The translations under genes were made by a program, and so were the position numbers. A stretch of 64,000 nt of DNA from Kribbella soli. Its GTDB lineage: Bacteria > Actinomycetota > Actinomycetes > Propionibacteriales > Kribbellaceae. The notes beneath the pieces are model-generated. The model made no database searches and was not told where the DNA came from. It saw nothing but the letters and a program-made list of their open reading frames with translations. Shown piece after piece: positions 46,844-56,256 of this stretch (within the stretch, counting starts at the first letter, position 1; each line of letters starts with the position of its first letter). Location: NCBI RefSeq assembly GCF_004331345.1, contig NZ_SJJZ01000005.1, forward strand, positions 248,001-312,000, given 5' to 3'.

Positions 46844-47343
46844 GTGAAGAAGTGAGTATCGACCAGGAGTCTCTGCGTGCGGAGTGGGCCGAGGACCGGC
46901 CGCCGCACGCTGGGCCGTGGTCTCAGTTCGGGGCCGCGGTTGTTGCCGGTGTCGTCGGTCTCTGTGGAGTGATCGGGTCGCTCACGCTCGGGTTGGGCCG
47001 GTTGACCCAGCCGGGCCCGGGGCTGTGGCCGTTCGTGGTCTGCGTTGTCGTGACCGTCCTGTCGATCGCCCTCGCACTGGTTGGCCGGCACGGGACGGAT
47101 ACCGAGAAGTTCTCGCGGTCGAGTGTGCTGACGGCGGTCGCCGTGCTGACGCTCGTGGTCTTCGCGGCCGTGCTGCCGTTGATCGGGTTCGAGCTCCCGT
47201 CGCTGCTGCTGACGTTCGTGTGGCTGCGGTTCCTCGGCAAGGAGTCCTGGGTGTCGTCGGTCGCGATCAGCGTGGGCACGGTCGCCGCGTTCTACGTCCT
47301 GTTCGTGCTGATCCTTCAGATTCCGCTGCCCAGGTTGATCTGA
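46840..47343 (+). CDS. tctB: Tripartite tricarboxylate transporter small membrane subunit (TctB)
   Basis: This 167-aa membrane subunit of the TTT system has four predicted helices after an N-terminal acidic cytosolic stretch. It contains LGRLTQPGPGLWPFVVCVV, the conserved TctB segment near the second helix. It starts in GTGA overlap with tctC; a GTG 4 codons on is also plausible. With TctA it forms the proton- or sodium-driven permease. Substrate specificity comes from TctC. Confidence 0.9.
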   Translation: MSEEVSIDQESLRAEWAEDRPPHAGPWSQFGAAVVAGVVGLCGVIGSLTLGLGRLTQPGPGLWPFVVCVVVTVLSIALALVGRHGTDTEKFSRSSVLTAVAVLTLVVFAAVLPLIGFELPSLLLTFVWLRFLGKESWVSSVAISVGTVAAFYVLFVLILQIPLPRLI

Positions 47344-48833
47344 TGGGCGGCTTCATCGATGGTTTCGGCGTCGTCCTGCAGCCCGGGAATCTGCTGTACT
47401 GCCTGATCGGCGTCGTGATCGGCATGCTGATCGGCGTCCTCCCCGGGCTCGGCCCGGCAGCGACGATCGCGATCCTGCTGCCGATCACGTACGGCGTGGA
47501 GCCGGTGTCCGCGATCATCATGCTGGCCGGCATCTTCTACGGCGCACAGTACGGCGGCACGATCACGTCGGTCCTGCTGCGGCTACCGGGCGAGGCGTCG
47601 TCCGTGGTCACGGTGTTCGACGGGTTCGCCCTGGCCAAACAAGGACGAGCCGGTACGGCGCTCGGCATCGCCGCGATCGGATCGTTCATCGGCGGCACGG
47701 TGTCGATCATCGGGCTGACGCTGCTCGCTCCGGTGGTCGCGAGCGTGGCGCTCGACTTCGGTCCGCCGGAGTACGCCGCCTTGTCGTTGTTCGGCGTACT
47801 GCTGGTGGCGACCGTGGGGAACGGCAGCCGGTTGAAGGCGGTGATCGCCGCGGGCCTCGGGTTGCTGTTGGCAACGGTCGGGCGGGACACCTTCACCGGG
47901 GCGAGCCGGTTCACGTTCGACAGCCTGAACCTTGCCGACGGCATCGACTTCGTGCCGATCGCGATGGGCCTGTTCGGGCTCGGCGAAATCCTCTACAACC
48001 TGGAGGAACGGCACCACAAGGTGCAGACACCGGCCGCGGTGGCGAACATCTGGCCGTCGCGAGCCGACCTGCGGCAGGCGCGCGGCGCGATCGGCCGCGG
48101 CTCGGTGATCGGTTTCGTGCTCGGTGTACTGCCCGGGGGTGGCGCGACGCTGTCGTCGCTGGTCGCGTACGCGGTGGAGAAGCGGCGGGCGAAGGAGCCC
48201 GAGCGGTTCGGTCGCGGTGCGGTCGAGGGTGTCGCGGCGCCGGAGACGGCGAACAACGCGGCCGCGACCTCGTCCTTCATCCCGCTGCTGACGTTGGGGA
48301 TCCCCGCGAACGCGACGATGGCGTTGATGTTCGGCGCGCTGCTGATCCAGGGAATCGCGCCCGGCCCGCAACTGGTGTCGGAGCACCCGGACCTGTTCTG
48401 GGGCGTGATCAACTCGATGTATCTCGGCAACATCCTGTTGCTGATCATGAGCATCCCGCTGGTCGGGGTGTTCGTGAAGATCCTCAAGGTGCGGCCCGCC
48501 GTCCTCGCGCCGATCACGGTGCTGATCACGCTGCTCGGCGTCTACACGGTGGCGAACCAGGTGTTCGACATCTTCCTGGTGATCGTGTTCGGCGTCCTCG
48601 GGTACCTGATGAAGAAGTTCGGGTTCGAGCCGGGGCCGCTGGTGCTCGCGTTCGTCCTGGGGAGCGTGATGGAGATCGCGGTCCGGCAGTCGCTGCTGAT
48701 CTTCGGCGGCAACCCGGCCGGCTTCTTCACCCGGCCGATCTCCGGCACGGTCCTCGTGGCGCTGATCATCGTCCTCGTCCTGCCCGCGGTGCGCCTGCTG
48801 GTACGTCGACGTAAGGAGAAGGAACTCGTATGA
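47343..48833 (+). CDS. tctA: Tripartite tricarboxylate transporter large membrane subunit (TctA)
   Basis: This 496-aa permease with about 12 helices carries the TctA hallmarks: IGVLPGLGPAATIAILLPIT (first conserved loop), YGAQYGGTITSVLLRLPGE, LGVLPGGGATLSSLVAYAVEKR (repeat loop), and TANNAAATSSFIPLLTLGIPANATMA-type residues. It overlaps tctB by one base (TGATG) and the next gene by 4, so all four genes are one unit. It probably imports an aldarate together with H+ or Na+. Confidence 0.95.
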   Translation: MGGFIDGFGVVLQPGNLLYCLIGVVIGMLIGVLPGLGPAATIAILLPITYGVEPVSAIIMLAGIFYGAQYGGTITSVLLRLPGEASSVVTVFDGFALAKQGRAGTALGIAAIGSFIGGTVSIIGLTLLAPVVASVALDFGPPEYAALSLFGVLLVATVGNGSRLKAVIAAGLGLLLATVGRDTFTGASRFTFDSLNLADGIDFVPIAMGLFGLGEILYNLEERHHKVQTPAAVANIWPSRADLRQARGAIGRGSVIGFVLGVLPGGGATLSSLVAYAVEKRRAKEPERFGRGAVEGVAAPETANNAAATSSFIPLLTLGIPANATMALMFGALLIQGIAPGPQLVSEHPDLFWGVINSMYLGNILLLIMSIPLVGVFVKILKVRPAVLAPITVLITLLGVYTVANQVFDIFLVIVFGVLGYLMKKFGFEPGPLVLAFVLGSVMEIAVRQSLLIFGGNPAGFFTRPISGTVLVALIIVLVLPAVRLLVRRRKEKELV

Positions 48834-50080
48834 GCAAGATCGCCCGCGTCGAACTCACCCCGGTCGCGTTCGCGGACCCACCGCTCCTCAACGTGGTCGG
48901 TGTCCACGAACCGTTCGCGCTGCGGACGATTGTCCAGGTGTGGACCGACGACGGGCTGGTCGGGTTGGGGGAGACGTACGCGGCCGACGACCACCTGGCG
49001 CGGTTGCGCGCCGTCGCCGACGTACTGCCCGGACTGGACATCTTCGACGTGAACGGCCTGCGTCAGCGCGTGAGCGACGTACTGACCAGCGGCGGTGGAG
49101 CTCAGGTCGGCGGGATGCTCAACATCCAAGACCCCGTCGACGTGGTGTTGTCGCCGTACGAGGTTGCGTTGCTGGACCTTCAGGGCAAGCAGCTGGGGCT
49201 CCCGGTGGTGGATCTGCTCGGCGGGGCGGTCCGGGACGAGGTGCCGTTCAGCGCGTATCTGTTCTACAAGTGGGCTGGTCATCCGGGTGGTGCACCGGAC
49301 GCGTGGGGCGAGGCCCTCGATCCTGATGGGATCGTGCGGCAGGCCGCGAAGATGATCGGGGAGTACGGCTTCACCGCGATCAAGTTGAAGGGCGGCGTGT
49401 TCCCGCCGGCGCAGGAGGCTGAGGCGGTTCGGGCGCTCGCCGAGGCGTTCCCGGAGCACAAGCTGCGGATCGATCCCAACTGCGCGTGGACCGTGGACAC
49501 GTCGGTACAGGTCGCTCGGGAGCTCACCGGCGTACTGGAGTATCTCGAGGATCCGACGCCCGGGATCGACGGTATGGCGGCCGTTGCGCGGCAGACCGAG
49601 ATTCCCTTGGCGACCAACATGTGCGTGATCGCGTTCGCGCACCTGAAGCCGGCCGTGCTCGCGGATGCCGTGCAGGTGGTGCTGTCGGATCATCACTACT
49701 GGGGTGGGCTGCGGCGGTCGCAGTTGCTGGCGGGGATCTGCGACACCTTCGGGATGGGGTTGTCGATGCACTCCAACTCGCACCTCGGGATCAGCCTCGC
49801 CGCGATGACGCATCTGGCCGCGGCGACGCCGAACCTGACGTACGCGTGCGACACGCATTACCCGTGGAAGACCGAGGACGTGATCAAGCCCGGTGTGCTG
49901 GCGTTCGAGTCGGGGAGCGTGCGGGTGCCTGGTGGGCCTGGGCTCGGCGTTGAGCTGGATGCTGACGCGCTGGGGGAGTTGCACGAGCAGTACCTCGCGT
50001 GCGGGATCCGGAGGCGCGACGACACGACGTACATGCGGACGATCGATCCGGAGTTCAGCCCCAACACAGCGCGCTGGTAG
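48830..50080 (+). CDS. Glucarate dehydratase-related enolase-superfamily enzyme
   Basis: This 416-aa enzyme is a paralogue of the window's glucarate dehydratase. Active-site residues are conserved: Lys185/Lys187 (IKLKGG), Asp215 (RIDPNCAW), Glu240 (YLEDP), and His314/His318 (MHSNSHLGIS). The loops around TSGGGAQVGGMLNI and LSDHHYWGG differ, so it may prefer another aldarate or act as the GudX-like relative. It is coupled to tctA by an ATGA overlap, so its substrate is probably the transported acid. It is convergent with the next gene with no spacer. Confidence 0.88.
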   Translation: MSKIARVELTPVAFADPPLLNVVGVHEPFALRTIVQVWTDDGLVGLGETYAADDHLARLRAVADVLPGLDIFDVNGLRQRVSDVLTSGGGAQVGGMLNIQDPVDVVLSPYEVALLDLQGKQLGLPVVDLLGGAVRDEVPFSAYLFYKWAGHPGGAPDAWGEALDPDGIVRQAAKMIGEYGFTAIKLKGGVFPPAQEAEAVRALAEAFPEHKLRIDPNCAWTVDTSVQVARELTGVLEYLEDPTPGIDGMAAVARQTEIPLATNMCVIAFAHLKPAVLADAVQVVLSDHHYWGGLRRSQLLAGICDTFGMGLSMHSNSHLGISLAAMTHLAAATPNLTYACDTHYPWKTEDVIKPGVLAFESGSVRVPGGPGLGVELDADALGELHEQYLACGIRRRDDTTYMRTIDPEFSPNTARW

Positions 50081-50899
50081 TCAGACGGGCCAGCCGCTGG
50101 CGGAGAGAGCGTTCAGTACGGCGGTGCGCTGCGGGTTGAGCGGGACGTACATGAGTCGGCTGCCGTCCGGGCCGCGGAGGCGGGCGTAGCGGCGGCCGAC
50201 CTTGATGGAGGTGACCGCGGTCCGCTGGACGACCTGCGAGGCGAGGGTGCCGTGGGTGACCGAGACTCGGTCCGGTGCGATCGTGACGGACAGAGTGACT
50301 CCGAGGGCGTGCCGGATGGCGAGGACGACCAACGCGAGTGCGAGCACGAGGCTCGGACCGAATACGGCGATGACGATCACGGTCGTCGACGCGCTGGCGA
50401 ACGCCAACGCCATCACGCCCATCCCGACCACCACCGCAAACGCCACCGCAAGCTTCGGACTGAACCCACTGTTGGCCCACGGCAACGGCCCCCGAGCCCC
50501 ATCCCGAAGCACAACCCGAGTCTCCCGACGCGCCGGACCCGACGGTGCAACAGCTTGCGGAGGTGCCGGCGCGTCGGCCGGGTCTGCCTCTGGTGTTGAC
50601 CAGTGCCAGCCCTCGGCGGTGGCGGCGCGACGGAACTCTTCTACGTCGAAGCGGGCGAGCGGGATCATGCCGTTCGAGGTCATGCCTTCGAGGTACAGCT
50701 GCGGCTGCCCGCGGGACTCCGCGACGCGCAGGGTGCTGTCGTCGTTGCGGACGAGCTCCCACGACGTACCGGAAGCCCGCAACGCGGTGATGCGATCGGG
50801 CCGCACCTCGATCCAATCCGGATGCCGGCGTACCGCCCCGCCGAATTCGAACCGCTTCCGCGGCGGGACCGGCTTGCGGGCGTGCACGAGCTGCGCCAT
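50081..50899 (-). CDS. Membrane protein with PH-like domains, unknown
   Basis: This 272-aa protein has an N-terminal cytosolic part (residues 1-95) with aspects of a PH-like strand pattern (WIEVRPDRITALRASG, FDVEEFRRAATAEGWHW) and a Pro/Ala-rich linker. Two hydrophobic helices follow (~145-195, KLAVAFAVVVGMGVMALAFA and AVFGPSLVLALALVVLAI). The C-terminal PH-like domain follows (LSVTIAPDRVSVTHGTLASQVVQRTAV). No family recognised beyond that. It lies 10 nt downstream of the FadR-type gene. Confidence 0.65.
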   Translation of the reverse strand: MAQLVHARKPVPPRKRFEFGGAVRRHPDWIEVRPDRITALRASGTSWELVRNDDSTLRVAESRGQPQLYLEGMTSNGMIPLARFDVEEFRRAATAEGWHWSTPEADPADAPAPPQAVAPSGPARRETRVVLRDGARGPLPWANSGFSPKLAVAFAVVVGMGVMALAFASASTTVIVIAVFGPSLVLALALVVLAIRHALGVTLSVTIAPDRVSVTHGTLASQVVQRTAVTSIKVGRRYARLRGPDGSRLMYVPLNPQRTAVLNALSASGWPV

Positions 50900-50909
50900 G
50901 CCGGCAACG

Positions 50910-51593
50910 CTATCCGGCGTGGTGGGTCAGCAATCGGTGCCGGGTGCTCGACAGATGCACCCGCATCGCCGCCCGCGCCGCCTCCGGCTCGGACCGCGCG
51001 ATCGCCGCGCTGATGTTCTCGTGTTCGTGTACCACACGGGTCAGGTGGTCCGGGTCCGACATCTCGTACGCCGGGTCGAGCCGGGTTCGCGGCAGCATGA
51101 TCATCATCGGCCCGAGCTCACCGATCAGGTCGCCGTAGAACCGGTTGCCCGAGGCAACGGCAATCTTGAGGTGGAACGCGAAGTCGGCCTCCACCGACCG
51201 GCCCGGATCGTCGCCGACCCGCCGGAAGTCGTCCAGCGCCCGCTCGATCCCCTTCAGCTGATGCTCGGTACGCCGTACCGCGGCCAGCCCGGCCGCCTCG
51301 CTCTCGACGCCGATCCGGAAGTCCATCAGGTCGAGTACGTCGCGGTGCGACCGCACCTCGCGCAACCCCGGCGTACGCTCCGGGACCTCGAGCACGAACG
51401 AACCGCGCCCCTGGAACGTCTCCACCAGGCCGGCCGCCTGCAGCCGCGAGACCGCCTCGCGAACCACGGTCCGGCTGACCCCGAACTCCTCGACCAGACC
51501 GTTCTCACCCGGCAGCTTCTCGCCCGGCGCGATCCGCCCGCTGAGAATCCGCCGCTTCAGATCGTCGACGATCTGATCGGCAAGACCACTCAC
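50910..51593 (-). CDS. FadR-subfamily GntR regulator of the galactarate/talarate gene
   Basis: This 227-aa winged-helix regulator has an HTH at ~10-70 (GEKLPGENGLVEEFGVSRTVVREAVSRLQAAGLVETFQGRG). The FCD domain at ~85-220 has the metal-type residues DFAFHLKIAVASGN and HEHENISAAIARSEPEAAR. It is translationally coupled (GTGA overlap) to the talarate/galactarate dehydratase, and an operator-like dyad precedes that operon. It should be an aldarate-responsive, autoregulated repressor. Confidence 0.93.
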   Translation of the reverse strand: MSGLADQIVDDLKRRILSGRIAPGEKLPGENGLVEEFGVSRTVVREAVSRLQAAGLVETFQGRGSFVLEVPERTPGLREVRSHRDVLDLMDFRIGVESEAAGLAAVRRTEHQLKGIERALDDFRRVGDDPGRSVEADFAFHLKIAVASGNRFYGDLIGELGPMMIMLPRTRLDPAYEMSDPDHLTRVVHEHENISAAIARSEPEAARAAMRVHLSSTRHRLLTHHAG

Positions 51594-52705
51594 CGGAACT
51601 CGCAGCTGTCCACCGTCCAGCGCGCGCACTGCTCGGTCGTCGTGAAGCCGAGCCCCGGGCGGTCGGGTACGAGCATCCGCCCGTCGACCGTCTCCAGACG
51701 CTCGTTGAACAAGGGATTCAGCCACTCGAAGTGCTCGACCCAGGGCTCACGCGGGTATGCCGCGGCGAGGTGCAGGTGGATCTCCATCGCGAAGTGCGGC
51801 GCGAGCTGCAGACCGTTGTGGTCGGCCAGCGTCGCGAGCTTGAGGAACGGCGTGATGCCGCCGATCCGGGGCGCGTCGGGCTGGATGATGTCGGCCGCGC
51901 GGGCCTCGATCAGCCGCACGTGTTCACCGACGCTGGACAGCATCTCGCCGGTCGCGATCGGGGTGTCGAGCGCCGCCGCCAGCTCCGCATGCCCGAGCGC
52001 GTCGTACGCGTCCAGCGGCTCCTCGATCCAGACCAGGCCGAACTGCTCGAGCACCCGGCCGATCCGCAGCGCGGTCGGGCGGTCCCACTGCTGGTTCGCG
52101 TCCACCATCAGTGGTACGTCGTCGCCGAGGTGTTCCCGTACGGCGCGAACGCGGTCGAGATCGATCCGGCTGTCGGGCTGCCCGACCTTGATCTTGATCC
52201 CGCCGATCCCGTCGGCGAGCGACTTCGACGCGCGTTCCTTCACCTCCTCGATCGGGGCGTGCAGGAACCCGCCGGAGGTGTTGTACGCGCGGACCGAGTC
52301 GCGGTGCGCGCCGAGCAGCTTGGCCAGCGGCAGGCCGGCGCGCTTCGCCTTCAGGTCCCACAGCGCGATGTCGATCGCGGCGATCGCCTGCGTCGCGACG
52401 CCGGATCGGCCGACCGAGGCGCCGGCCCAGAGCAGCTTGTCGTACACCTTCGCGATGTCGGACGGATCCTCGCCGAGCAGGTTGGCCGCGATCTCCTTCG
52501 CATGCGCGTACTGCGCCGGTCCGCCGGCCCGCTTCGAGTAGCTGAACCCGATGCCGTGCTGGTCCTGCTCGGTCGCGATCTCCGCGAACAGGAACACCAC
52601 CTCGGTCATCGGCCGCTGCCGTCCGGTCAGCACCTTGGCGTCACTGATCGGCTGATCGAGCGGGAGCACGACGGACGAGAGCTTCACCTGGCGGATGCGG
52701 TCCAT
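51590..52705 (-). CDS. L-talarate/galactarate dehydratase
   Basis: This 371-aa enolase-superfamily member of the mandelate-racemase subgroup dehydrates galactarate (meso) and L-talarate. It matches from memory the Salmonella TalrD/GalrD protein through much of its length: DAKVLTGRQRP, SYSKRAGGPAQYAHAKEI, LLWAGASVGRSG, and the C-terminal HFAMEIHLHLAAAYPREPWVEHFEWLNPLF. Catalytic Lys171/Lys173 (KIKVGQ), Asp202, Glu228 and Glu254, plus His304, are present. Its product is the same type of keto-deoxy acid that KdgD uses. It is coupled to the following FadR gene. Confidence 0.93.
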   Translation of the reverse strand: MDRIRQVKLSSVVLPLDQPISDAKVLTGRQRPMTEVVFLFAEIATEQDQHGIGFSYSKRAGGPAQYAHAKEIAANLLGEDPSDIAKVYDKLLWAGASVGRSGVATQAIAAIDIALWDLKAKRAGLPLAKLLGAHRDSVRAYNTSGGFLHAPIEEVKERASKSLADGIGGIKIKVGQPDSRIDLDRVRAVREHLGDDVPLMVDANQQWDRPTALRIGRVLEQFGLVWIEEPLDAYDALGHAELAAALDTPIATGEMLSSVGEHVRLIEARAADIIQPDAPRIGGITPFLKLATLADHNGLQLAPHFAMEIHLHLAAAYPREPWVEHFEWLNPLFNERLETVDGRMLVPDRPGLGFTTTEQCARWTVDSCEFR

Positions 52706-52868: not shown

Positions 52869-54347
52869 ATGGACGTCTCGGAGAAGCTGCTCCGGTCGTA
52901 CGCGACGATCGACGAGGACAACGACGGCCGGATCTGGTCCTGGGAGTTGCTCAACACGCTCGGCCGGGCCGGGATCATGCCGGACGATCCGCGGGTCCGC
53001 GCGGCGCTGGACGGCGTCCGTGATGCCGCCGGCCGCCCGGCGATCACTCCGTACGCCCAACCGGTCCAGCTTGACTTCGACACCTTCGCGGAGGTCGCGC
53101 AGCACGCCGTGGTGCAGCAAGCGCTGACCGGTGACCTCGCGGTCCCCGCAGACGAGTTCGCGGAGTTCGCGCACGCGGTGGAGCGGATCCACGCGGACCT
53201 GCTGGACGAGCGGTCCGGCGAGGTCGCGGACTACATCCCGACGCTGCGGGACGCCGATCCGGAGAAGTTCGGGATCGCGGTCTGCACGGCCGATGGCCAG
53301 GTGTTCTCGATCGGCGACACCGCGGAAGAGTTCAGCGTGCAGTCGACGTCGAAGCCGTTCAGCTACGCGATCGCGCTGGAGCAGCTCGGCCCGGAAGAGG
53401 TGCACCGCTGGATCGGCCAGGAGCAGAGCGGTGGTCCCTTCAACGATCCCTTGCTGTCGCTGGGGCGGGACGGCAGGCCGCACAACCCGATGATCAATGC
53501 CGGAGCGATCGGGACGCTCGCGCTGGTCGACGCCGGCAAGGACCAGTCCGGTCGGTTGACCACCGTCCAGGAGACGTGGAGGTCGATGACAGGCGAGCGG
53601 CCGCAGCTGCACGGTTCGACGTTCGTGGCCGAGCGCGACACCGGATTCGGCAACGCCGCGTTCGCCAACGCGCTGGCGAAGGTGGGGAAGTTGTACGGCG
53701 CCAGTCCGACCGATCGGCGTGCTCCGGAAGACGCCAACGAGTTCTACACGATGGTCTGTTCGCTCACCATGAACGCGGAGCGGCTGGCCCGGGCCGGTGC
53801 CACGCTCGCGAGCGGTGGAGTCGCACCGTTGAGCGGCCGGCAGGTGTTCTCCGCGGACACCGCCTCCCGCGTGCTGTCCGTGATGGGCCACAGCGGGATG
53901 TACAACGACTCCGGACAGTTCTCGAACCAGGTCGGGCTGCCGGCCAAGAGCGGCGTGTCCGGCAACGTCATGATGGTGGTGCCGTCGAAGCAGATGGCCG
54001 TCGTGGTGTTCTCCCCGCGGCTGGATGCGGTCGGCAACTCGGTGCGTGGGGTCGAGGTGTGCAAGCGGCTGGTCAACGAGTTCGGCCTGCACCCGTACCG
54101 CGCAATGGGCGCCGAGCGCGGCCGGGTCGCCGCACACCAGATCGGCGGCCACATGAACGAGGCCGACAAGCGCGCCGAGGCCGCGAGCGCCGCCGACCGC
54201 GCGCTGGGCGGCGTGGCCCGAGCCGGGTCGGGCGGTGCGGCGAAGGTCGTGGCCGCTGACGGAACAGGCGGTGCGGTGAAGGTCGCCGACGCCGAGCGGA
54301 CCGGGACGACCGGACGCCGCACAGGACAGCCCGGCCACCAGCTCTGA
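52869..54347 (+). CDS. glsA: Glutaminase with N-terminal EF-hand
   Basis: This 492-aa protein joins an EF-hand domain to a serine-dependent beta-lactamase-fold glutaminase. Residues 15-26 form a canonical Ca2+ loop (D15-x-D17-x-D19-G20-x-I22...E26, in IDEDNDGRIWSWE). The glutaminase core starts at about 105 (VADYIPTL) with catalytic Ser159-x2-Lys162 (QSTSKPFSYA), then NPMINAGAI and the C-terminal SGVSGNVMMV. This is the layout of eukaryotic kidney-type glutaminase. The 60-residue Ala/Gly/Arg tail is low complexity. It converges on glmS through a strong hairpin. GGGGAAGGAAG gives the ribosome site. Confidence 0.92.
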   Translation: MDVSEKLLRSYATIDEDNDGRIWSWELLNTLGRAGIMPDDPRVRAALDGVRDAAGRPAITPYAQPVQLDFDTFAEVAQHAVVQQALTGDLAVPADEFAEFAHAVERIHADLLDERSGEVADYIPTLRDADPEKFGIAVCTADGQVFSIGDTAEEFSVQSTSKPFSYAIALEQLGPEEVHRWIGQEQSGGPFNDPLLSLGRDGRPHNPMINAGAIGTLALVDAGKDQSGRLTTVQETWRSMTGERPQLHGSTFVAERDTGFGNAAFANALAKVGKLYGASPTDRRAPEDANEFYTMVCSLTMNAERLARAGATLASGGVAPLSGRQVFSADTASRVLSVMGHSGMYNDSGQFSNQVGLPAKSGVSGNVMMVVPSKQMAVVVFSPRLDAVGNSVRGVEVCKRLVNEFGLHPYRAMGAERGRVAAHQIGGHMNEADKRAEAASAADRALGGVARAGSGGAAKVVAADGTGGAVKVADAERTGTTGRRTGQPGHQL

Positions 54348-54435: not shown

Positions 54436-56256
54436 CTACTCGACGGTGACCGACTTCGCCAGGTTGCGCGGCTTGTCCACGTCGTGGCCGAGGGCGACCG
54501 CGGCGTAGTACGCGATGATCTGCAGCGGGATCGTCAGCAGGATCGGGTCCAGCTCGGGCTCGTTCTTCGGTACGACGATCTTCGCCGCGACCCCGTCCGG
54601 AACCTCGACGCCCGGGTGCGTGACGACGTACAGCGGGCCGGAGCGGGCGCCGATCTCGTGCAGCGCGCCGATGTTGCGGTCCAGGAGCTCGTCGTCGGGG
54701 ACGATCGCGACACTCGGCACGTCCGGCGAGATCAGCGCCAGCGGGCCGTGCTTCAGCTCGGAGGTCTGGTACGCCTCGGCGTGCCGGTACGAGATCTCCT
54801 TCAGCTTCTGCGCGCCCTCGCGCGCCACCGGGTACCCGCGGGTGCGGCCGACGAAGAACAGGCTCTCGTGCTTGGCGAGGCGGCCGGCGATCTTGGCCAG
54901 TTCCTCCTCCTGGGCGACGATCGCGGCGATGTCCGCCGGCAGCTTCTTCAGGCCCTCGATCAGCCGACGGCCGTCGGCGGGGGAGACGTCCCGGATCCGG
55001 CCGAGGTGGATGCCGAGCATTGCGAACCCGACCGCCATGTTGGTCAGCGCCTTCGTCGACGCCACCGAGACCTCCGGGCCGGCGTGCAGGTACACGCCGC
55101 CGTCGACCTCACGGGCGATGCTCGAACCGACCGCGTTCACCAGGCCGATCACGCGACCGCCCTTGCGCTTCAGCTCCTGCACCGCGACCAGGGTGTCGAG
55201 GGTTTCGCCGGACTGCGACACGGCGACGTACAGCGTGTCCCGCTCGACCACCGGGTTGCGGTACCGGAACTCCGAGGCAGGCTCCGCGTCGGCGGGGATC
55301 CGCGCGACCTCCTCGATGAACTGCGCGCCCATCTGACCCGCGTAGTACGCCGAACCGCAGCCGAGGATCTTGACCCGCTTGATCTCCCGCGCCTCGCGGG
55401 CGTCCATGTTCAGGCCGCCGAGGTGCACGGTGTGGAAACGCTCGTCCAGCCGGCCCCGGATGACCCGGCCGACCGCGTCCGGCTGCTCGTGGATCTCCTT
55501 CATCATGAAGTGCTCGTGCAGGCCGCGCTCGAACTCCTCGGCCTCCCACTCGACCGTCTTCGCGGTCTTGGTGGTCGGGGAGGCGTCCTGGGTGAAGGTG
55601 CGGTAGCCGTCGGCGCGGACGGTGGCCAGCTCGCCGTCGTCCAAGTAGACGACCTGGCGGGTGTAGCGGATCAGCGCGGCCGCGTCGGAGGCGATGTGCA
55701 TCTCGCCGTCGCCGATGCCGAGGATCAGCGGGCTGCCGTTGCGGGCGACCACGATCCGGTCCGGGAAGTCGAGGTCGATCACCGCGATGCCGTAGGTGCC
55801 CTCGATCCGGCGCAGGGCGGCCATCACCTTCTCCTCGAGGGTGGCGCCGTCGGCCTGCTCGATCAGGTGCGCGAGCACCTCGGTGTCGGTCTCGGAGCGC
55901 AGCTTGACGCCGGCGTCCTCGAGCTGCGAGCGGATCGCACCGGCGTTGTCGAAGATGCCGTTGTGCACGACCGCGATCCGCTCGTTGCCGCTGGCGTGCG
56001 GGTGCGCGTTGTCCTTGCTCGGGCCGCCGTGGGTGGCCCACCGGGTGTGGCCGATGCCGAGCTTGCCGCCGAAGCGCTTCGGCAGCGACGCCTCCAGCTC
56101 ACGGACCCGGCCGGCGTCCTTGTGCACCTTCAGCTCGCTGGACCCGAGGACGGCGACGCCCGCCGAGTCGTAACCCCGGTACTCGAGCCGAGCCAGTCCG
56201 TCCACCAGGATGGGCGCGGCCGGCTTGGTGCCGACGTACCCGACGATTCCGCACAT
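54436..56256 (-). CDS. glmS: Glutamine-fructose-6-phosphate aminotransferase GlmS
   Basis: GlmS makes glucosamine-6-phosphate from fructose-6-phosphate and glutamine, supplying UDP-GlcNAc for MurA and the wall. The 606-aa protein begins MCGIVGYVG, with Cys2 as the glutamine amidohydrolase nucleophile. The isomerase half has two SIS domains: SQSGETLDTL (fructose-phosphate loop), ASTKALTNM and the C-terminal PRNLAKSVTVE, which is the classic end. No glmS ribozyme is evident upstream. The small gene 47 nt upstream on the same strand is probably cotranscribed. Confidence 0.97.
   Translation of the reverse strand: MCGIVGYVGTKPAAPILVDGLARLEYRGYDSAGVAVLGSSELKVHKDAGRVRELEASLPKRFGGKLGIGHTRWATHGGPSKDNAHPHASGNERIAVVHNGIFDNAGAIRSQLEDAGVKLRSETDTEVLAHLIEQADGATLEEKVMAALRRIEGTYGIAVIDLDFPDRIVVARNGSPLILGIGDGEMHIASDAAALIRYTRQVVYLDDGELATVRADGYRTFTQDASPTTKTAKTVEWEAEEFERGLHEHFMMKEIHEQPDAVGRVIRGRLDERFHTVHLGGLNMDAREAREIKRVKILGCGSAYYAGQMGAQFIEEVARIPADAEPASEFRYRNPVVERDTLYVAVSQSGETLDTLVAVQELKRKGGRVIGLVNAVGSSIAREVDGGVYLHAGPEVSVASTKALTNMAVGFAMLGIHLGRIRDVSPADGRRLIEGLKKLPADIAAIVAQEEELAKIAGRLAKHESLFFVGRTRGYPVAREGAQKLKEISYRHAEAYQTSELKHGPLALISPDVPSVAIVPDDELLDRNIGALHEIGARSGPLYVVTHPGVEVPDGVAAKIVVPKNEPELDPILLTIPLQIIAYYAAVALGHDVDKPRNLAKSVTVE

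Follow-up and report, generated by a model that had tools for sequence, protein, structure and literature searches.

The window, a stretch of 64,000 nucleotides of Kribbella soli DNA (contig NZ_SJJZ01000005.1, positions 248,001 to 312,000), encodes a glutaminase which is a bacterial relative of the mammalian kidney-type glutaminase (GLS) in both its EF-hand domain and its catalytic domain. The first EF loop of this enzyme carries the full EF-loop pattern, which has decayed repeatedly among the copies of the same genus. Loop 1 probably binds a metal ion, while the wider explanation, that of an actinobacterial GLS-type glutaminase whose activity would be tuned by the metal predicted in loop 1, is about evenly balanced.

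Domain layout and kinship to mammalian glutaminase

The open reading frame (frame and coordinates checked) starts with the ATG at 52869 and comprises 492 codons followed by a stop at 54345-54347 (Table 1), and its start methionine is common to most of the 23 Kribbella relatives. The sequence-only reading had called the product a bacterial glutaminase, which the Pfam search bears out, as PF04960 is matched with 316.4 bits (cut-off 27) over profile positions 1-285 of 286, a full-length catalytic domain, with the EF-hand_14 domain (PF17959; residues 12-93, 30.1 bits against a cut-off of 23.7, E 6e-7) in front of it. These are the only two families matched by the protein at E <= 1, and no Ank match is among them. 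S159 and K162 are invariant in an alignment of nine Kribbella sequences, and the region around S159-T-S-K162 aligns to QSCVKP of mouse GLS; this S-x-x-K is what we take to be the catalytic motif of the glutaminase. No secretion signal is recognisable by eye.

Table 1. Features of the EF-hand glutaminase gene, its protein and its surroundings (window positions)
Feature	Coordinates	Strand	Basis and remarks
EF-hand glutaminase CDS	52869..54347	+	492 aa, stop codon included; PF04960 and PF17959
N-terminal EF-hand_14 domain, residues 1-93, paired EF-hand fold	52869..53147	+	PF17959, AlphaFold2 model, GLS fold match
EF loop 1, residues 15-26, DEDNDGRIWSWE	52911..52946	+	D1, D3, D5, G6, I8 and E12 all present
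Second EF half, residues 66-77	53064..53099	+	strand and helix kept in model; loop ligands non-canonical
Glutaminase catalytic domain, residues 117-409	53217..54095	+	PF04960, E 2e-94; groups with mouse GLS
S159-T-S-K162, S-x-x-K motif	53343..53354	+	conservation and alignment to mouse GLS
C-terminal tail, residues 412-492, in place of ankyrin repeats	54102..54344	+	no Ank match; -HQL end
glmS (glucosamine-6-phosphate synthase), convergent neighbour	54436..56256	-	SIS and GATase domains; conserved neighbour
Enolase-superfamily (MR_MLE) enzyme, divergent neighbour and cluster member	51590..52705	-	domain match; conserved neighbour
GntR/FCD regulator, cluster member	50910..51725	-	domain match
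Enolase-superfamily enzyme, cluster member	48830..50077	+	domain match
TctA transporter, cluster member			domain match

The claim that residues 15-26 fit the EF-loop rule holds in full. The loop (D-E-D-N-D-G-R-I-W-S-W-E) fills all six positions of the strict rule, which demands a 12-residue loop with D/N/S at positions 1, 3 and 5, Gly at position 6, a hydrophobic residue at position 8 and E/D at position 12, and it sits at the EF-loop position of the recognised EF-hand_14 domain. No other stretch of the protein matches strictly, and a match turns up in 43 of 20,000 shuffled versions (about 0.2%). Modelled with AlphaFold2 (mean pLDDT 78.9), residues 1-95 form two helix-loop-helix units, both of whose loops contain a short strand (helix 3-14, strand 21-23 and helix 24-33; strand 67-69 and helix 70-77). 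Loop 2 of the pair is non-canonical, with Thr at position 12 in a register set by eye. The generic EF-hand models of Pfam (EF-hand_1, 5, 6 and 7) give no match to the window domain at E <= 1, and a search of the window genome with EF-hand_7 returns zero matches at E <= 0.001. The generic models give weak matches to the Kribbella copy L023 and to L119, one of the ankyrin-bearing relatives described below, while L120 from the latter group is matched by EF-hand_7 at 3.2e-6, below the cut-off of that model.

The layout had been likened to that of kidney-type glutaminase, and mammalian GLS is indeed the best sequence match in the PDB (E 3e-70), above bacterial glutaminases, with the aligned residues 22-411 taking in most of the EF domain as well as the catalytic part. 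A profile built from nine sequences scores 368 bits with GLS and 276 bits with the best bacterial glutaminase, and the window protein shares 37% identity with mouse GLS over 378 columns of the EF and catalytic parts. When the EF model is compared with known structures, mammalian glutaminase takes the first 14 places in Foldseek (lowest E 0.035, so no match below 0.001), and the best in VIA-align is GLS residues 137-227 (Z 8.7, rmsd 3.2, 81 residues), where a Z under about 13 may mean only an arrangement common in helical proteins. EF-hand proteins follow at about Z 7, thus the margin over unrelated EF-hands is modest. The accompanying claim, that the EF-hand-like part of the eukaryotic enzyme has lost its ligands, is confirmed as far as the alignment reaches: positions 5-12 of the mouse GLS loop read QEKIPVHK, so ligands 5 and 12 and Gly6 are gone, with positions 1-4 lying outside the alignment.

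Trees of the catalytic domain alone were built to ask whether the kinship to GLS rests on the EF part only. In the 67-row tree, the 23 Kribbella EF copies and mouse GLS fall on one side of a branch (98/90), which rises to 99/99 when two long branches are removed; with L118, an ankyrin-bearing relative, added, the Kribbella copies group with mouse GLS at 100/100 and mouse GLS pairs with L118 at 98/93, all of these values being read with caution, as mouse GLS is itself a long branch of odd composition. A 39-row tree of the EF plus catalytic parts separates the Kribbella copies, seven relatives from another family and mouse GLS from eight ordinary glutaminases (100/100); mouse GLS meets the long outgroup branches in it, and it gives no branching order among Kribbella, the other family and GLS. 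The phylogeny that the sequence-only reading had proposed as a check therefore places the Kribbella enzymes with mouse GLS and apart from ordinary actinobacterial glutaminases. On the catalytic trees and the N-terminal fold match together, the window enzyme is a bacterial relative of kidney-type GLS in both domains.

Occurrence in Actinomycetota and relatives with ankyrin repeats

The gene is patchy within Kribbella, with the protein encoded in 23 of 38 genomes and missing from 15. EF-hand_14 was found in 23 of the 391 genomes surveyed from the order, all of them from the genus of the window (1 of 40 genera), and a scan of genome contigs with the window protein returned only Kribbella among named records (5 loci). 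The domain occurs in 2 of 394 genomes in a sample of the class (that of the window and G1102), in 2 of 396 in a sample of the phylum Actinomycetota (that of the window and G385) and in 0 of the 14 control genomes searched for it. The match in G385 (PF17959, 20.8 bits, below the cut-off) was rejected as a glutaminase, as its frame reads by eye as a chemotaxis receptor. Among plasmid records, 207 of 72,556 contain a match, in no case reaching 80% of the query, and the 40 matches listed all begin at residue 87 or beyond, with no EF copy among them; a scan of IMG/VR found no relative. Genome G003 has, in addition to its full-length EF glutaminase, a separate glutaminase-like copy in two pieces (G003:C1:4592210-4593162) with 41-42% identity to the window protein.

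Around G1102, EF-hand_14 occurs in 4 of 219 genomes of its genus and in 4 of 145 genomes of its family (f4, probably Streptomycetaceae), in 4 of 17 genera. The seven proteins collected (L118-L124, with G1102 counted once) all contain EF-hand_14, glutaminase and ankyrin matches, a piece of the catalytic domain being missing from L120. They have the first two domains in common with the window protein, at 39-42% identity, but they possess ankyrin repeats and no strict loop (0 of 7). As these EF-glutaminase-ankyrin proteins occur in scattered genomes, actinomycetes sporadically carry the full mammalian layout, of which Kribbella has a version without ankyrin repeats.

These relatives bear on the age of the loop. 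D1 is kept in two of the seven, D3 in seven, S5 in three, G6 in five, the hydrophobic residue at position 8 in seven and E12 in five, while L119 and L120 retain the side-chain ligands of loop 1 at all four positions (1, 3, 5 and 12) without Gly6. Since each position of the rule is kept by some of these relatives, an old metal site appears more likely than a recent gain. A pattern arising by chance or recently gained in Kribbella, with no old metal site in GLS-type enzymes behind it, would suit the finding that the strict rule is satisfied in 14 of 30 bacterial EF-hand glutaminases (23 from Kribbella and seven others), all from one genus; however, the rarity of the pattern in shuffled sequences and the fact that none of its six features is kept by fewer than two of the seven f4 relatives make such an origin improbable.

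The same relatives, together with the trees, bear on the origin of the layout itself. An ordinary bacterial glutaminase might have been fused to an unrelated calmodulin-like EF-hand independently of GLS, as the sampled actinobacterial glutaminases (at most four candidates scored per genome) are without the domain and only the match of the window protein starts before profile position 63. However, it is EF-hand_14 that matches in the window protein, the seven relatives have the EF-glutaminase-ankyrin layout, and the catalytic domain by itself groups with GLS, so that this fusion is largely refuted by the trees and is very improbable.

Loop state, evolutionary rate and selection in Kribbella

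In 17 of the 23 Kribbella copies (L008-L030), the glutaminase gene is flanked by glmS on one side and the enolase-superfamily gene on the other, whereas, within the stretch fetched, L018 has the enolase gene only, L024, L025, L027 and L029 have glmS only, and L030 has neither. Six of the 15 Kribbella genomes without the glutaminase hold an orthologue of the enolase gene (90-95% identity), and in four of these six (L094, L095, L096 and L098) glmS ends 36-63 bases before it with no glutaminase between, the glutaminase thus being cleanly absent there. Presence and absence of the gene amount to 3 changes on the enolase tree (24 rows). Beside the gene, the region 46884-52705 of the window is a catabolic-looking cluster (members in Table 1).

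Mean identity is 64% for the EF domain, 76% for the catalytic domain and 95% for the enolase gene (16 genomes), and 98% for glmS (15 genomes). The median dN/dS is 0.46 for the EF domain and 0.38 for the catalytic domain against 0.07 for the enolase gene and 0.05 for glmS, that of the EF glutaminase being about 6-9 times that of the two neighbours (window; L008-L023, L026 and L028). The ordinary glutaminase of Kribbella has a median of 0.20 (28 pairs), about half that of the EF copy, and in matched genome pairs its values (0.10-0.21) are lower than those of the EF copy (0.23-0.55) in 10 of 10, the closest pair barely so (0.21 against 0.23). A ratio raised over both the neighbours and the ordinary glutaminase indicates weak constraint or diversifying selection on the EF glutaminase in particular.

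Loop 1 is complete in 14 of the 23 Kribbella copies, among which L018 has D at position 12, and decayed in the other nine. L024-L027 and L029 have K at position 12 and cluster in trees containing the EF domain but not in the catalytic-only tree, while the decayed loops of L019, L022, L028 and L030 are each unlike the others. The label of full or not-full loop changes at least four times on a Kribbella tree built without the loop columns and three times on the 39-row tree. In the 14 full loops D1, D3 and G6 are fixed, position 5 is D or N, position 8 is I or V, position 12 is E or D, and positions 2, 4 and 10 vary; as the presence of the pattern was the reason for choosing these rows, the variation serves as illustration only. 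Intact-loop and decayed-loop copies within one genus constitute a natural series for the effect of metal on a GLS-type enzyme.

The evidence that selection keeps the loop is mixed (simulations, P about 0.01; site permutation, 0.15-0.34). The loop was simulated on trees built without it, with the rate and gamma shape taken from the EF domain itself and an intact start assumed at the midpoint root, and the 14 intact loops observed among 16 window-like copies were reached in 21 of 2,000 runs, or in 0 of 2,000 when the rates were almost equal. As the 16-copy set omits seven copies, all decayed, the simulation was rerun on all 23 copies (24 of 2,000), on 22 without L030 (23 of 2,000) and on 18 (22 of 2,000). 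Permutation of ligands against other EF-domain sites gives p 0.147 for the 16 window-like copies, 0.336 for all 23 and 0.087 for 15 without L022, none of which is significant. There is thus moderate support for selection on metal binding in some members of Kribbella, while the genus cannot depend on calcium control, as the loop is decayed in 9 of 23 copies, the gene is missing from 15 of 38 genomes and the permutation is non-significant.

The main rival explanation regards loop 1 as vestigial or purely structural, with the EF pair holding the N-terminal domain together as in mammals and the canonical letters being leftover, or constitutively metal-bound without a regulatory role. It is a serious possibility, somewhat short of even, to which the repeated decay of the loop on both trees, the permutation tests, the non-canonical loop 2 and the loss of ligands 5 and 12 from the mammalian domain lend weight, whereas the observed intact count, reached in about 1% of simulation runs, and the changes inside intact loops, which are of the kind that metal ligands tolerate, speak against it.

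Predicted role of the metal, known systems and the C-terminal tail

Judging from the conservation of the S-x-x-K active site, the enzyme would hydrolyse glutamine to glutamate and ammonia. In the metal-tuned reading, loop 1 would hold one Ca2+ (or Mg2+) per subunit in copies including that of the window, with loop 2 being structural only, and the bound metal would stiffen the N-terminal domain and thereby bias the arrangement of the two subunits in the dimer. By analogy with mammalian GLS, in which a scissor-like movement of the N-terminal domain brings the activation loops together, the metal would bias that movement, so that metal binding would tune activity and not turn an essential process on or off. 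Against metal tuning stand the decay of nine loops in 23, the non-significant permutation, the presence of one canonical loop only, the weak constraint on the whole protein, the absence of EF-hand_7 matches from the genome, the failure of generic EF models to find the domain and the modest fold margin, and a regulatory effect of calcium on the window enzyme is rather doubtful. It is also conceivable, though unlikely as a whole, that GLS-type ancestors had a working N-terminal calcium sensor that was lost from animals and from most bacterial lineages, with phosphate activation and filament assembly taking its place in animals; if so, human GLS, which is a target of cancer drugs, would have as its N-terminal domain the decayed form of such a sensor.

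Mammalian GLS (KGA/GAC) and GLS2 share with the window protein an EF-hand_14-type domain followed by PF04960 and belong to the same catalytic clade, whereas the window loop is intact where the mammalian one has lost ligands 5 and 12. Unlike KGA and GLS2, the window protein has no ankyrin repeats and is nearer the GAC splice form, which is also without them. Kidney-type GLS is activated by phosphate and assembles into filaments. The alignment, which has an insertion of two residues there, sets Arg317 and Glu325 of the mammalian activation loop, presumably placed correctly by their numbering on the mammalian GLS sequence, against Pro and Arg. As the window protein does not retain this pair, it is unlikely to be controlled in exactly the way that the mammalian enzyme is. 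The pair is named as that of the GLS activation loop in PMC10912226. Mammalian GLS texts, in the excerpts consulted, name the EF-hand-like N-terminal domain and give no metal-related role for it.

Ordinary glutaminase A enzymes (YbaS, YbgJ, the Micrococcus enzyme and L002) have PF04960 in common with the window protein but are without the EF domain. L002 is the second glutaminase of the window genome, with 37% identity to the catalytic domain of the window protein, and forms a separate clade with its Kribbella kin in the 67-row tree, from which YbaS, YbgJ and the Micrococcus enzyme are absent. Calerythrin-like prokaryotic EF-hand proteins share with the window protein a canonical EF loop in an actinobacterium, but they are stand-alone Ca2+ binders with several loops, and here a single loop is fused to an enzyme. 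A literature search on bacterial EF-hand glutaminases, covering titles and abstract openings, found nothing on the subject, and a bacterial GLS-type member with a strict EF loop, which did not turn up there, is apparently new, while EF-hand_14 itself is already established in Pfam. A bacterial ancestry of the multidomain GLS layout was reportedly argued for by Pasquali 2017 (J Biol Chem), a work cited in PMC10912226, PMC13142944 and PMC11224379.

The low-complexity tail pointed out from the sequence was found as described, residues from about 412 to 492 being rich in Ala, Gly and Thr. It is parallel, by position only, to the short C-tail in which mammalian GAC ends, as given in excerpts of PMC10770349 and PMC11224379. 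The full-length structure predicted from a 6-sequence alignment was set aside (pLDDT 40) and kept solely for its low-confidence hint of a possible tail helix at residues 431-445. An ADRALGG-like motif, found in the distant L030 as well, is followed by an Ala/Gly/Thr/Pro-rich part of variable length. The tail is quick to change, yet it ends in -QL in 15 and in -HL in three, a total of 18 of the 23 Kribbella copies, an indication that the C-terminus may serve as a small signal or contact.
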